A stretch of DNA of 22,657 bases, taken from a virus. Both the position numbers and the translations under genes were made by a program. The notes beneath the pieces were generated by a model. That model saw nothing but the letters and a program-made list of their open reading frames with translations, was not told where the DNA came from and made no database searches. The stretch is from IMG/VR virus record IMGVR_UViG_3300009076_001666, positions 1-22,657 of that record; one strand, 5' to 3'. Below, in pieces: positions 1 to 21,016 of the stretch; the first letter of the stretch is position 1; each line of letters starts with the position of its first letter.

Positions 1-177
1 CATGGCCGAACGCACACCATAACTGCGCGCCTCATAATTACAGGTGGCAATCACCCCGCGCCGATCCGCCGAACCACCGACCGCCAAGGGCTTGCTGGCC
101 AGGCTCGGGTCATCCCGCATCTCGATTGCCGCGTAGAAGCAGTCGCAATCGACGTGGATGATCTTTCTTTGCTTCAT
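1..177 (-). CDS. dinB: DNA polymerase IV, N-terminal part (runs off the left edge)
   Basis: Reading leftwards from ATG 177 gives 59 residues beginning [20 protein letters not shown], the start of a Y-family translesion polymerase. The HVDCDCFYA motif carries the first metal-binding Asp and the steric-gate region (FYA), and the following [26 protein letters not shown] matches the fingers/palm start of DinB. The enzyme extends primers past lesions during the SOS response. The rest of the gene lies outside the window. No strong Shine-Dalgarno precedes the ATG, and I found no LexA box in the roughly 500 bases upstream, although dinB is commonly SOS-controlled; this suggests that the prophage separates the gene from its native promoter (inference). 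Best read as the chromosomal flank of the prophage. Confidence 0.93.
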
Positions 178-686
178 AAGATATTGATATTCATGGCATT
201 AAGAATAAATCTTCCAAAAAATACCCGCATCAATACCCGCTATTTTATCCACTTGGAGCTCGGACAACGTCTGACAAAATGGTGTGAATGCTTTCCGACA
301 GACGGCTGACATCGTACGCAATGATACCCACGTTTGCTGCTATCGAACTGCACCACCATCTATACAAAAGGCCCGGTATCACAGAATGTACCTGCGGTCC
401 CGGACCTCACTGTCTCCACATAGTGGTATTGCTCGGGTTCAGCATGTCCAGCTCAGGCCCCGGCCCGCCGCCAACACCCTGTAAGGCCGATAGTCTGCTT
501 CGTATCACTGGGCTGCCCTAGCGTTGGTTGATCTTTACAAATTCTGTTGCCGCTACAAAGGCCTGTTATTGGCTACCGTAAGCAACAACGATCGGCCAGA
601 AGCGGGTGCTGGGGGTCGATAGAAATAGCTCACAAACGGAAACTCTCCAGTGGTATCGAAAGCCGAAGCGGAGTAAGGGGGAGAGC
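178..686. other. 509-base gene-poor stretch, likely chromosome/prophage junction
   Basis: No open frame here has a convincing start, ribosome binding site or recognisable protein; the two short plus-strand frames between 284 and 521 have proline-rich, composition-driven translations and look like chance. A tandem 9-base repeat AATACCCGC occurs at 220-228 and 232-240 (12-base period), and a related GATACCCAC at 323-331. Because dinB is chromosomal and the following genes are cargo of a prophage, an attachment site should lie in or near this stretch, but its partner is outside the window and cannot be compared. Confidence 0.5.
220..240 (+). repeat. Tandem AATACCCGC repeat between dinB and prophage cargo
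   Basis: Two identical 9-mers AATACCCGC separated by ATC, giving a 12-base period, lie about 45 bases upstream of the dinB start. Short direct repeats of this kind occur as integrase arm-binding sites or near attachment cores, which would fit the position at the edge of the prophage. No integrase or second attachment site is in view, so the role is a guess. Confidence 0.4.
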
Positions 687-1676
687 ATGAAAAAAATAAC
701 TGCGGGTCACGGAGAGCCCCGCTACACGCTTTACATTCCGCTTGTGATGCATCGTTTATCGCGGCCCATCGATTTGCAGCTACTGGCAAGCGAGCTCGGC
801 AAGAAGCTTTCCGTGGAAGATGCAACGATTCACGGGAGTAACGGCTGGGAGCAGTTGCGCATGGGGCCGTTTGCTACTGAGGAGATGGCTAATGAGGTCT
901 TCCATCGCACCATTCGCTATCTCGTGACGCTTTGTGTCCAGGCCCAGTATCCAATTTTCTTTGGCCAGGAGCTTATGAAGGTAAGTGTGCCAGATGTGCT
1001 CTTGACCTTCGGCTTCGACGCCTCTATCGATGCGTTCGTGAATTTGGCTAGTGCGGTGGTCGTTCCTGAGCACCTCCAGGTTTATGACCAAGGCGTCATG
1101 CTGGGGCATGTCGATCCTCAAATGAGATCTCAGCAACTACGCGATGCTTTGGATCTGACGTGTGACCTGCCAGGCCCTCTTCTTCCCAAAGTACGTCTCG
1201 CTGTGGAGGCCTACATCGCTGCGTGTGCCACGCACACCCCCATGATGAAATTCGTTGGATTCGTAATCTGCTTAGAAACCCTGTGCGAACAGGAGAGTAG
1301 GCCTCCGGCCGAAGTCGCAGCATTAAAAGCGATTAGGACTTCTCTAAAGAAATTGGACTTTGCCACTGCTGATACGGTCCATGAGAGCATGTTGCAAGCG
1401 ACTTTAGAGTCCATCAGCAGGATTCAGAAGTTGTCGATAGGAGCGCAATTTCAGAGGCTCATCGTGGCGCACTCAACCAGCATCGCCACGCATCTGGAAC
1501 ATGGCCATCCTTGGATCAACGATATGAAAGAGGCGGCCAAATCTATTTACGCCATGCGCAGTAAGATCGTCCACGAAGGAAATTGGGGCGTTGACCATGA
1601 TTCGACTTGGATAGCGCAAAATTTCGCCAAAGTAGCGGCCAAAGCCGTCTTGCTGGACAAGCTCAGCAAACCTTAA
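687..1676 (+). CDS. HEPN-domain protein, ApeA-like (candidate RNase/defence protein)
   Basis: The 329-residue protein starts at ATG 687, preceded by a good Shine-Dalgarno (AAGGGGGAGAGC); the frame is open further upstream, but without a start signal. The C-terminal third is helical and ends with MRSKIVHEGNWG, where R291 and H296 form the R-x4-H motif that is the RNase active site of HEPN domains. The preceding FVGFVICLETLCEQ segment and the spacing resemble the Apea-like HEPN family. The N-terminal two thirds show no domain I know. HEPN proteins of this class are RNases in abortive-infection and toxin systems. It stands alone between the chromosomal dinB and a convergent umuD-like gene, with no antitoxin-like partner next to it. 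The motif is visible; the RNase activity and the defence role are inferred. It could also be a non-catalytic HEPN protein. Confidence 0.62.
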   Translation: MKKITAGHGEPRYTLYIPLVMHRLSRPIDLQLLASELGKKLSVEDATIHGSNGWEQLRMGPFATEEMANEVFHRTIRYLVTLCVQAQYPIFFGQELMKVSVPDVLLTFGFDASIDAFVNLASAVVVPEHLQVYDQGVMLGHVDPQMRSQQLRDALDLTCDLPGPLLPKVRLAVEAYIAACATHTPMMKFVGFVICLETLCEQESRPPAEVAALKAIRTSLKKLDFATADTVHESMLQATLESISRIQKLSIGAQFQRLIVAHSTSIATHLEHGHPWINDMKEAAKSIYAMRSKIVHEGNWGVDHDSTWIAQNFAKVAAKAVLLDKLSKP

Positions 1677-1772
1677 TGAGTAGCAGCCTTCGGGGACGAT
1701 TCCTCGCTATTGGAAGTTATTTGGAAAAAGTTAGGCGCTGCGGGCAATTCATCACCCAGGGCAATGGTTGGC

Positions 1773-2210
1773 TCAAGCATGATGGCGGTGGCGGCGCAGG
1801 CTGTCCGTCACAACACCCCATATCAGCAGCTCATCGCCTTCCATGACGTAGCGTGGCGGGTACTTGGGGTTCTCAGAGCACAGCACGTATTGCTGGCCGT
1901 TGCGCGAGAGGCGTTTGACGAAGGTCTCCCCGTTTAGCTCAGCCACGACAATATCGCCGTGCTGCACCGGCAGGGCCTTGCTGATGATCAGGATGTCATC
2001 CTCAAAGATACCCACGCCCGTCATGCTGTCGCCGATCACCCGCACCAGGTAGGTGTGCGGTGCATCGATGTCCAGCAGCTCATCGAGGGATAGCTTTTGC
2101 TCAAGATGATCCAGCGCAGGGCTTGGAAAGCCGGCCGGAATGCGGAAGGAATAAAAGGGCAGCTCGATTGCTGAACGGCCCAGGGGGCCGAGGAATATTG
2201 CAGTGGCCAT
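1773..2210 (-). CDS. umuD: UmuD/LexA-like self-cleaving S24 peptidase
   Basis: The 145-residue protein is the size of UmuD (139 in E. coli) and has no DNA-binding domain. The expected Ala-Gly cleavage site is A26-G27 (IPAGFPSP), the nucleophile is S62 in GDSMTGVGI, and the general base is K99 in TFVKRLS; the 37-residue Ser-Lys spacing equals that of UmuD. After RecA-stimulated self-cleavage, UmuD' joins UmuC to form translesion polymerase V. No umuC follows: the next gene downstream is the convergent HEPN gene, so this is an orphan that may modulate a host UmuC or polymerase, or regulate another phage protein (inference). It is divergent from the GIY-YIG gene, and a SOS box and sigma70-like promoter precede it. 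Confidence 0.85.
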   Translation of the reverse strand: MATAIFLGPLGRSAIELPFYSFRIPAGFPSPALDHLEQKLSLDELLDIDAPHTYLVRVIGDSMTGVGIFEDDILIISKALPVQHGDIVVAELNGETFVKRLSRNGQQYVLCSENPKYPPRYVMEGDELLIWGVVTDSLRRHRHHA

Positions 2211-2232
2211 TGAGGGATGCTCTTTCAGAATA

Positions 2233-2248
2233 CTGTATTTTTATGCAG
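2233..2248 (-). promoter_or_regulatory. LexA (SOS) box upstream of umuD-like gene
   Basis: CTGTATTTTTATGCAG keeps both the CTG and CAG half-site ends and the AT-rich centre of the gammaproteobacterial LexA operator, with one change in the ACAG half. It lies 23-38 bases upstream of the umuD-like ATG (2210) and overlaps the likely -10 element, so LexA binding would block transcription until DNA damage. Confidence 0.8.
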
Positions 2249-2268
2249 TTATTTTATCACCATGTGAA
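2240..2268 (-). promoter_or_regulatory. Sigma70-like promoter of umuD-like gene
   Basis: Read on the minus strand, a -35 TTCACA (2268-2263) is followed by a 17-base spacer and a -10 CATAAA (2245-2240). The -10 sits inside the SOS box. Matches to consensus are partial, but spacing and position relative to the operator are right. Confidence 0.45.
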
Positions 2269-2388
2269 GCGTCACCCATCAGCTAACGACAAGCACCGGT
2301 GATAGAGTGCGTGCAGCCATGCCTACCAACCTATACCCAGGGATGGTTCAAGCCACTAGTGATTGGTACAGGAACAAGGAGAGAAAGG

Positions 2389-3753
2389 ATGAGCCTGAGT
2401 GATTACTTCAAAGGACCAGCTCACAGGCAGCGCGCTGAACAACTTGAACAGCAGCTGACTAAACTTCAAGGCGAACTCGATCAAGTCAAAGCGCTAGCGC
2501 AGAAGTTCGGCGCAATGGATGCACTGCAAATCCAACACGAAATCGAACGCGAGAACCAAAGACTGCAGACCCTACGCTCAACTGCAAAGAGCGCCGAGAA
2601 CAACATCGCTGAACTCGCCCAGCGATCCAACCAGCTGCTTGACCAGATACTGGTACTGGAAGAGACGATACTTCTAGAAAGCTTTGCGCTCTACGAACCC
2701 AAGTTCAAGATGAGTTCAAGTACCGACTACAAGACCCGCCTTGCTGCAGTCCGCGAGCGGCAGAAAGAGATGATAAAAAGAGGAGAAGCTGCAACGGGGA
2801 ACATGGGCTGGGAGGTTAACGGGAGCAAGGCTGAAGGTCGAAAACTCGTCAATGACATGATCAAGCTGGTCATCCGCTCCTTTAACAACGAAGCCGACTA
2901 CTGCGTTGATAACGTAAAGTTCGACAACATTGAGTTGGGCGAAAAACGCATCCTCAAATCCTTCGAAACCTGTAACCGCCTCGGCCGGGTGATGACTGTC
3001 GAGCTTTCGAGCAAGTACCTAAAGCTCAAGCTTGACGAACTGCACCTTTCACATGAGTTCCAGATCAAAAAGCAGGAAGAGAAGGAGGAAGCTAAGCGTG
3101 TTCGTGAAGAACTGCGCGAGCAGCAAAAGCTTGAGCAGGAAATCCGAGCTGCGCGGGATAAGATCGCCAAAGAGCGCAAACACTTCACTAACGCGCTCAA
3201 AGACCTCCAAGCGCGACTCGATAAAGCCACCGATGAAGAAGAACGCGCAACTCTATTAGCTAAAGTGGCGGAAGTCGAAGCTGGCAAAGCCGAGCTAGAG
3301 AGTGAAGAGAAGCTCATAGACTACCGCGAGCAGAATGCCAAAGCAGGCTACGTTTACGTGATCTCGAACTTGGGCGCTTTTGGCGAAGGGGTTTACAAAA
3401 TCGGCATGACCCGGCGCCTTGAACCAATGGAGCGCGTCGACGAATTGGGTGATGCATCAGTACCGTTCTGGTTTGATGTTCACGCTATGGTCTTTTCAGA
3501 TAACGCACCTGGCCTGGAAGCAAAACTACACGAGCGCTTCGCCGCTGGGCGCCTGAATAAGGTGAACGGCCGCAAAGAGTTCTTCAGAGCCGATATTGCT
3601 GAAATTGAGGCTGTGATTCGTGAAAACTATGACGCAGCAGTTGAAGTCGTCCATGAGGCCTCTGCAGAGCAATACCGTGAGAGCTTACGCATGGCCATGC
3701 CTGCACCCTCTATACAGCAATCGGAACACGTTGCCGCTTTGAGCTTGAACTGA
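2389..3753 (+). CDS. DUF4041 / GIY-YIG (T5orf172-type) nuclease with coiled coils
   Basis: The 454-residue protein starts at ATG 2389 behind AAGGAGAGAAAGG; 30 further open codons upstream lack such a signal. Residues about 14-90 are an acidic/glutamine-rich coiled coil, about 105-215 resemble DUF4041 (YEPKFKMSSSTDYKTRL), and about 220-312 form a second, highly charged coiled coil. A C-terminal GIY-YIG domain of the T5orf172/MUG113 type spans about 320-400: YVYVISN at 321, VYKIGMTRR at 335 with the catalytic Arg, and LHERFAAGR plus KEFFR near the end. Family members cut DNA by a single-metal mechanism and are common in phages and in islands. Its target is not known. A hairpin at 3773-3796 follows the gene. 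It is divergent from the SOS-controlled umuD-like gene. Composition does not differ strikingly from its neighbours. Confidence 0.85.
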   Translation: MSLSDYFKGPAHRQRAEQLEQQLTKLQGELDQVKALAQKFGAMDALQIQHEIERENQRLQTLRSTAKSAENNIAELAQRSNQLLDQILVLEETILLESFALYEPKFKMSSSTDYKTRLAAVRERQKEMIKRGEAATGNMGWEVNGSKAEGRKLVNDMIKLVIRSFNNEADYCVDNVKFDNIELGEKRILKSFETCNRLGRVMTVELSSKYLKLKLDELHLSHEFQIKKQEEKEEAKRVREELREQQKLEQEIRAARDKIAKERKHFTNALKDLQARLDKATDEEERATLLAKVAEVEAGKAELESEEKLIDYREQNAKAGYVYVISNLGAFGEGVYKIGMTRRLEPMERVDELGDASVPFWFDVHAMVFSDNAPGLEAKLHERFAAGRLNKVNGRKEFFRADIAEIEAVIRENYDAAVEVVHEASAEQYRESLRMAMPAPSIQQSEHVAALSLN

Positions 3754-5142: not shown

Positions 5143-5925
5143 ATGTTCTGGAGCAGAAACAAGACAGTACGAGTAGAGCTAACGAACCCACTATCCATAT
5201 CGGTATTGGTTTCAGGGGTCGATCAAACTCAAGCACAACCGGCCGTGCCTGAACCTCCAACTTTTGATATCGGACTAGCGATAAAGCTCACCAGTCTGAT
5301 GATTATTGTTGCACAGGGCGCATTGCTTATATATGGCTATTCGGTGCTGGTAGGTAACTATGATTTCTACGGCATCGATATCAACGAACTAGAAATCGGC
5401 AAACCCACACTTTTGCTGTACGGGTATATCTATGCCCTTTCAACCATATTCAAAGCAAGTGAAGGCGTACCTTATGCGGGTACTGCGGCGTTGCTAATGT
5501 TGTGCTTGCTCATAAGCGCGGTTTTTGTTTTCGCGTTGGTTGGTAAGGCTAAGGCCAGTATACGGGCTAGCGTTCTGTTCTCGCTTTTCATACCTTTAAT
5601 CTTCATATCCATCACCCCAGCACAAGGCATTAGCCTTGGCTTAGATATCGGGCAAGCAGATCTAAAGAAATTCATTGGGAGCGACCAAGGTGGAACGTAC
5701 AAGGCAGAACAAAGGATTACCACTGCAGACAATAAAACCCTCGTGGGGAAACTTATCTTAGCGGATACCCGTATCACCTTTTTGCTAACCAAAACCACGG
5801 TGGACAATAGCTGTGCGCCGACGTTGACGATTTACAAACTCAGTAATGCCAATAATAAAGTACTGAGAGAAACGGTGCTCACTCTCCAGGCAGATGATGC
5901 TCATCCCGCGCCAAAGGGCTGCTGA
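5143..5925 (+). CDS. Multi-pass membrane protein of unknown function (prophage cargo)
   Basis: The 260-residue protein starts at ATG 5143 with CAGGGATA upstream. Hydrophobic segments at about 45-70, 88-104, 111-133 and 141-160 suggest three or four transmembrane helices; an N-terminal tail of about 40 residues and a C-terminal domain of about 95 residues (165-260) are hydrophilic. The segment YDFYGIDINELEIGKPTLLLYG connects the first two helices. I do not recognise the family. It runs opposite to the lysis genes and its 3' end overlaps the end of Rz by 47 bases. It is more AT-rich than the tail genes and has its own upstream terminator, as expected of a moron. Superinfection exclusion at the inner membrane is one possibility, but nothing in the sequence proves it. 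It is not a typical holin, being on the opposite strand and too large. Confidence 0.7.
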   Translation: MFWSRNKTVRVELTNPLSISVLVSGVDQTQAQPAVPEPPTFDIGLAIKLTSLMIIVAQGALLIYGYSVLVGNYDFYGIDINELEIGKPTLLLYGYIYALSTIFKASEGVPYAGTAALLMLCLLISAVFVFALVGKAKASIRASVLFSLFIPLIFISITPAQGISLGLDIGQADLKKFIGSDQGGTYKAEQRITTADNKTLVGKLILADTRITFLLTKTTVDNSCAPTLTIYKLSNANNKVLRETVLTLQADDAHPAPKGC

Positions 5926-20020: not shown

Positions 20021-21016
20021 ATGATCTATTCACGCATGCTAAGAATACTTTTTCTTATCCCTGTCCTTATCACAACTGGATGCGCGCCGATCAAAAACAT
20101 GATTCCGAGCAATTGGGGAAAAGAGGAAGGTGAAGTGTGGTGCAGCAATCGTTACTTAGATATGAATGAGTATTATCAACACCCTGAAACATCAGGTGCT
20201 GCCTTCAGAAAAAGACTGGCCCTTTCTGAAAAAGGCTACCTGTACTCACTGGCCGCAGCGTACACACTGCAAAGTCCTAAAAGCGACAAGTACAACTTCC
20301 GACTTCCTAGTTACATGACAAAAATCGACTCATTGTCACGGAACGATAAGTCCGGCTTTCAGGCAGAGACTTTTATTATTATTAACCCGAGCACCGGCAA
20401 CAAAAATGTTGTCGTAGCATTTCGCGGAACCGATCAATTCAAAGATTGGTACAAACATAACGCTTGGCTCTGGCCCAATCAATTCGAGCCAGCACGAAAC
20501 TATATAAAAGATGTAGTTGCTCACCCTGAATCCAATGGTCTTGATTTAATCGTCTCTGGCTACTCTCTTGGAGGAGGTTTGGCAGTGCATGTTGCACAAC
20601 ACCCAGACACTAGAGGATATGTCATTGAAGCTTGGGCTCTAAACCCAAGTCCTAGAACAGGTGTTCCAAGAGAAGAGGACAAGCGTATCTATATGCTAAC
20701 TGCTGAGGATGAAGTCCTAAACATATTGCGTCGCGCATCCATTGGCGCGCCAATTAACCAGAATGCAGAGGACTTTGATCTTTTATCTTCAAGCTCTTGG
20801 TATGCACACTCCCGCTGGGTGCTCACCAGACAAATAATGATATACGCGGATCTATCTTTGTATATCAAGTCTGGGAGAACTGCAGAAAGCACCCCTCCCC
20901 TTGATATTTTAAAATCCAAGAAATTCGTAGGCTGCAGGGCGGAGGATGAGGCAAGAACGGAAGCACGACGCAAGAAATATCGCTTCGTACCTCGGTCTGT
21001 AGATACTACGATCTGA
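20021..21016 (+). CDS. Lipoprotein of the class 3 lipase type (alpha/beta hydrolase), prophage cargo
   Basis: The 331-residue protein starts at ATG 20021 behind AAAGGAAAGGAAGCC. A lipoprotein signal peptide ends in the lipobox ITTGC (C21). The hydrolase core shows VVVAFRGTDQFKDWYKHNAW (about 130-150, oxyanion region of class 3 lipases) and the nucleophile elbow SGYSLGGGLA with S182; D230 in LTAEDEV and H263 in WYAHSRW are plausible triad partners. It would act on lipid or ester substrates from the periplasmic side of a membrane, or be displayed at the outer membrane. It is AT-richer than the tail genes and interrupts the operon between tail tube and tape measure. Role (lipid remodelling, effector, superinfection exclusion) unknown. 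Confidence 0.82.
   Translation: MIYSRMLRILFLIPVLITTGCAPIKNMIPSNWGKEEGEVWCSNRYLDMNEYYQHPETSGAAFRKRLALSEKGYLYSLAAAYTLQSPKSDKYNFRLPSYMTKIDSLSRNDKSGFQAETFIIINPSTGNKNVVVAFRGTDQFKDWYKHNAWLWPNQFEPARNYIKDVVAHPESNGLDLIVSGYSLGGGLAVHVAQHPDTRGYVIEAWALNPSPRTGVPREEDKRIYMLTAEDEVLNILRRASIGAPINQNAEDFDLLSSSSWYAHSRWVLTRQIMIYADLSLYIKSGRTAESTPPLDILKSKKFVGCRAEDEARTEARRKKYRFVPRSVDTTI

Follow-up and report, generated by a model that had tools for sequence, protein, structure and literature searches.

A solitary gene at a prophage-host junction encodes a probable HEPN-family protein with a plausible role in phage defence

The window analysed here, i.e., the whole 22,657-nucleotide stretch of the IMG/VR virus record IMGVR_UViG_3300009076_001666 (positions 1 to 22,657), opens on host chromosome: the 5' end of dinB occupies 1-178 on the minus strand (a DNA match, with the reading frame assigned by eye), and window 1-165 or longer was matched at the DNA level in 146 of 149 Pseudomonas genomes. 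Recognisable phage genes begin at 1773-2210 on the minus strand with a umuD-like gene (Peptidase_S24, E 1.7e-29; PHROG UmuD-like, E 8e-44), which has no umuC adjoining it. Between the two, at 687-1676 on the plus strand, lies an intact single open reading frame (ORF) of 329 aa with its start ATG at 687, whose product, here called P0001, was placed in the HEPN family by the profile comparisons described below. The start is preceded at 675-683 (plus strand) by a strong Shine-Dalgarno-like sequence, AAGGGGGAG; a search for promoter-like sites upstream of the gene found none, and Rfam returned no RNA elements in window 1-2500. With host dinB on its left and the convergent umuD-like gene on its right, the gene is therefore solitary. 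A sequence-only reading of the window had located it outside the phage operon, by the chromosomal junction, and this placement was borne out, as were the ORF itself and its C-terminal RSKIVH motif (R291 and H296; window 1557-1574, plus strand).

The phage side of the junction could be followed by comparison with a related prophage of Pseudomonas peli (L034), in which umuD-umuC stands beside tRNA-Leu and queA (queA named by eye). Homology to this prophage ends at window 1757, 16 bp past umuD; thus umuC is missing from the window and the P0001 gene lies in non-homologous DNA. Closer to dinB, the 5' end of rimO (identified by eye) was found in decayed form at 440-540 on the plus strand by alignment with positions 2269-2323 of another Pseudomonas sequence, L110. 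The rimO-fragment junction recurred in one of 298 Pseudomonas genomes, namely L110, with an ankyrin-repeat gene (by eye) in place of the P0001 gene. The interval between dinB and rimO has the look of an insertion hotspot created by some recombinase, and the P0001 gene may be phage cargo or part of a separate insertion in this interval. In L110, a terminator hairpin follows the ankyrin-repeat ORF and an integron-integrase-like (IntI-like) ORF lies beyond rimO; an integron-cassette reading of the P0001 gene, considered on account of the IntI-like ORF, was dropped when no attC-like element was recognised.

The GC content of the P0001 gene was 52%, against 59-64% for the tail genes and 51.5% for a homologue of PD-Lambda-1 at the same prophage edge. 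Two further ORFs on the plus strand run against the phage genes around them: i) window 20021-21016, lipoprotein-like (GC 45%, weak lipase/Mbeg1-like matches), is opposite to the tail-gene direction and is probably added cargo; ii) window 5143-5925 (260 aa, GC 47%) has no family match, is apparently membrane-spanning and is opposite to its neighbouring phage genes. A separate 43.9 kb contig, IMGVR_UViG_3300025621_001497 (L002, also L118), showed no difference from the window in the 7,362 bp compared; the identity starts at window base 2389 and ends inside a tyrosine integrase, and it does not quite reach the umuD-P0001 region.

Searches with P0001 alone were uninformative. Nothing meaningful was returned from Pfam, NCBIfam, PADLOC or PHROGs, where no curated HEPN model matched, and direct searches found no relative among phages, plasmids, viral contigs and genome contigs, nor in about 1,170 genomes (398 Pseudomonas, 369 class-level and 398 phylum-level); every weak match inspected was a chance match. 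A tight DNA pattern for RSK[IL]VHEG likewise had no match in the viral contigs. Relatives were reached through the consensus of a group of proteins that the helix pattern suggested, which served as bait only; the evidence below comes from real proteins. Among plasmid proteins, the bait picked out one of Arthrobacter (WP_015062456.1; 46% identity, E 7e-21) and, with a weak match, one of Cytobacillus (WP_252240253.1). These plasmid relatives led on to an Alteromonas plasmid protein (WP_071960828.1) named 'HEPN domain-containing protein' in RefSeq, and a motif pattern search detected the viral relative (L125:12892-13431), which is present as an identical copy in two Mu-like viral contigs. Counting P0001, the five family sequences span Actinomycetota, Bacillota, Gammaproteobacteria and a Mu-like viral contig, and the four relatives are only about 20% identical to P0001. 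A family-profile search of 165 genomes gave a single weak match, which was rejected as a non-HEPN protein.

Several comparisons placed P0001 with these proteins. In BLASTP, residues 57-301 aligned co-linearly with the Arthrobacter protein (21% identity, E 2e-4 for a single comparison), and the pairwise alignments of P0001 with three relatives each beat all 1,000 shuffles. A profile built from the three plasmid proteins with P0001 excluded aligned to P0001 residues 168-299 and scored it at 31.7 bits; the top score among 5,000 shuffles was 5.7 bits, and the best unrelated sequence among 1,550 decoy ORFs reached 10.9 bits. With a HEPN-only profile that included the viral member, P0001 scored 34.1 bits; shuffles reached 6.4 and the best decoy, which proved not to encode a HEPN protein, 15.3. 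From the three-protein profile and the five-sequence alignment, the predicted HEPN domain covers residues 165-329 (window 1179-1673, plus strand). Sequence comparison thus gives good support for placing P0001, as a highly divergent member, in a small family of probable HEPN proteins that is not catalogued.

The R-x4-H motif by itself is at chance level and no evidence for HEPN: it occurred in 46% of composition-preserving shuffles of P0001, and P0001 contains it twice, the other copy being R257LIVAH262. Taken in context, on the other hand, the motif exceeds chance. Nine residues (E197, L199, S250, L258, Y288, R291, S292, V295 and H296) are identical in P0001 and all four relatives; they fall in a family block composed of E-x-L in helix 1 (E197 and L199), S-[IV]...L, and Y-x-x-R-S-x-x-V-H. 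Within the predicted RNase active site R291-S-K-I-V-H296, the R, S, V and H are invariant in five of five sequences. R291 and H296 thereby correspond to the conserved R-x4-6-H of the HEPN superfamily in every member, and the polar residue that follows R and the acidic residue upstream have their counterparts in S292 and E197 (5/5). The latter correspondence is loose, since P0001 carries S and E-x-L where N, D or H and the acidic motif Ex3[KR] are typical (PMC3710099). The sequence-only reading had proposed a HEPN protein with a conserved R-x4-H and had named conservation of its R and H among homologues as a test; the relatives' profile score and the presence of both residues in all four relatives support that proposal.

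In the N-terminal half, residues 1-83 (window 687-935, plus strand) are predicted to form a small beta-alpha-beta-beta-alpha domain. In the single-sequence model, pLDDT is mostly above 65 in this domain alone, and helices follow it before the HEPN part. Solved structures gave only generic ferredoxin-like matches to residues 1-83 (Z up to 7.2, short of what the tool treats as meaningful), and SPOR was matched weakly (Pfam E 0.12, sub-threshold; FtsN E 0.41); the SPOR matches fit a small alpha/beta domain and point to nothing more precise. Three of the relatives have an N-terminal region of comparable length, which the viral-contig one lacks. An earlier description of some 200 N-terminal residues without a known domain held as to the lack of a known domain but not as to extent, as the HEPN part starts near residue 165. 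The single-sequence AlphaFold models were too poor to use (mean pLDDT 45, and 50 for the HEPN half), and Foldseek searches with these poor models gave top matches with E above 1 and listed no HEPN fold.

Three known systems were compared with P0001. The surrounding helices had been called ApeA-like. In favour of this, the best matches among solved structures for a four-protein profile including P0001 were Ec2ApeA (E 4.8e-6) and Ec3ApeA (E 0.02; solved ApeA structures, PDB 9hxb to 9hxj), covering both the opening helices of the HEPN domain and the R-x4-H segment; ApeA was the sole solved match of relevance, and with the viral member added it stood at E 0.0015. When P0001 was left out of the profile, however, nothing was returned at E up to 1; the ApeA link is therefore suggestive but weak, and carried by P0001 itself. 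Moreover, HEPN_Apea (PF18739) did not match P0001 at E up to 1 in a Pfam scan, and ApeA-like proteins gathered with PF18739 from 199 Pseudomonas genomes included none alignable to P0001 beyond chance. The N-terminal layouts also differ: ApeA-NTD1 comprises about 300 aa and is mostly beta (PMC3710099), whereas P0001 has only about 165 residues before its HEPN domain, modelled as beta-alpha-beta-beta-alpha and then helices. With PF18739 unmatched and a beta-rich N-terminus of ~300 aa absent, filing P0001 as ApeA was rejected.

Tha, a tail-activated HEPN anti-phage system of the Staphylococcus prophages 80alpha and phiNM2, is a 301-aa protein with no assigned domain in its N-terminus and a C-terminal HEPN domain carrying R265NSIMH270; tail proteins of incoming phages are its trigger, its RNase is non-specific, and H270A abolishes defence (PMC11087260). 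P0001 shares the layout of Tha-1 of phage 80alpha, i.e., a single prophage gene of about 300 aa with a C-terminal HEPN domain and R-x4-H, but sequence kinship is not detectable: Tha-1 obtains -0.3 to 1.9 bits from the family profiles, less than many of its own shuffles, and an Ith-like inhibitor was not recognised beside P0001. As for Dazbog, the Alteromonas relative, which is similar in length to DzbB, weakly matched the DzbB profile over the C-terminal HEPN region (E 7e-4), while P0001 had no PADLOC match at E up to 10 and no DUF262 partner was seen among the neighbouring genes scanned around it.

Several family members have defence-type genes, or candidates for them, as neighbours. The Arthrobacter relative is followed by a SIR2 protein (PADLOC candidate class PDC-S25), and the viral-contig relative (L125 12892-14400 region) by an ORF with a SIR2-like GAGAS opening (Pfam SIR2_2 E 0.13, below the cut-off). 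The Alteromonas relative has a reverse transcriptase (RT_VI class) with an HTH gene on one side and a type I restriction system on the other; on that plasmid (L122 931-5814) a 397-aa protein without assignment also stands between the HEPN-family gene and the restriction genes. P0001 itself differs from the SIR2-adjoining relatives in having no SIR2 neighbour. The candidate defence gene in its neighbourhood is the PD-Lambda-1 family gene (DUF4041 plus T5orf172; PADLOC E 1.9e-147, and Pfam) at 2392-3753 on the plus strand, which is divergent from umuD and lies 0.7 kb from the P0001 gene at the same prophage edge. Family members thus appear to sit in defence neighbourhoods, a pattern drawn from a handful of cases.

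Judged from sequence, P0001 belongs to a family in which the HEPN motif residues are invariant, and its gene stands alone at the prophage-host junction. Since some of its HEPN-family relatives adjoin anti-virus genes, suicide-type phage defence is its most likely role. With moderate confidence, and by analogy, we read P0001 as a single-gene abortive-infection HEPN RNase at the edge of a Pseudomonas prophage, laid out like staphylococcal Tha; the genomic context and the Tha analogy make a single-gene defence role plausible and likely. RNase activity, dimerisation, N-terminal sensing and defence are what we infer for P0001, in the following form: i) P0001 would be a soluble HEPN ribonuclease carried at the prophage edge, with residues ~165-329 as its HEPN helical domain; ii) in a dimer, the R291/H296 pair would form a metal-independent RNA-cutting site; iii) the N-terminal half (small alpha/beta domain plus helices) would keep the HEPN dimer inactive until an infection signal arrives, possibly a phage protein (the case of Tha) or a nucleotide ligand (reported for ApeA, whose activation by deoxydinucleotides is stated in a title cited in PMC13405049); iv) the activated enzyme would cut cellular RNA (tRNA or mRNA) and growth would stop; and v) the growth stop would protect the lysogen population and the resident prophage against other phages.

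HEPN toxins with MNT antitoxins exist (PMC4621449) and the P0001 gene adjoins an integration junction, both of which would suit the toxin half of a toxin-antitoxin system that serves mainly in addiction or the stress response and not in phage defence. We consider this unlikely, as the partner gene is absent: dinB lies on one side and the convergent umuD on the other, and no antitoxin-like ORF (MNT or other) was recognised adjoining the gene. It is also improbable that P0001, at the prophage edge, is a HEPN protein with a housekeeping or non-catalytic RNA-binding function, or that its gene is decaying and without a present role. The flanks are indeed scarred (the decayed rimO piece and the lost umuC) and no search made found a close relative, but the 329-aa frame is intact, the ribosome-binding site is strong and R, S, V and H are fully conserved. 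Least credible, and indeed very unlikely, is a helical protein unrelated to HEPN whose R-x4-H arose by chance, for the profile score far over shuffles and decoys and two separate HEPN segments conserved co-linearly with family members weigh against the frequency of the motif in shuffles, the poor models lacking a HEPN fold match and the want of a matching curated HEPN model.

The reading as a single-gene abortive-infection RNase has a wider version, which we put forward tentatively as a possibility: P0001 and its four relatives may together make up a separate and uncatalogued group of single-gene HEPN defence RNases, distributed over several phyla, that has a new small alpha/beta N-terminal sensor and is partnered in some lineages by a SIR2 NADase. 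If this were true, one module would be able to act alone or to couple RNA cleavage with NAD depletion. Because no Pfam, NCBIfam, PADLOC or PHROGs model names the family and searches that start from P0001 by itself return nothing, defence-gene surveys would miss it. If P0001 protects against phages, the prophage-carried single-gene HEPN systems Tha and ApeA would be joined by another, one that differs from them in its N-terminal sensor.
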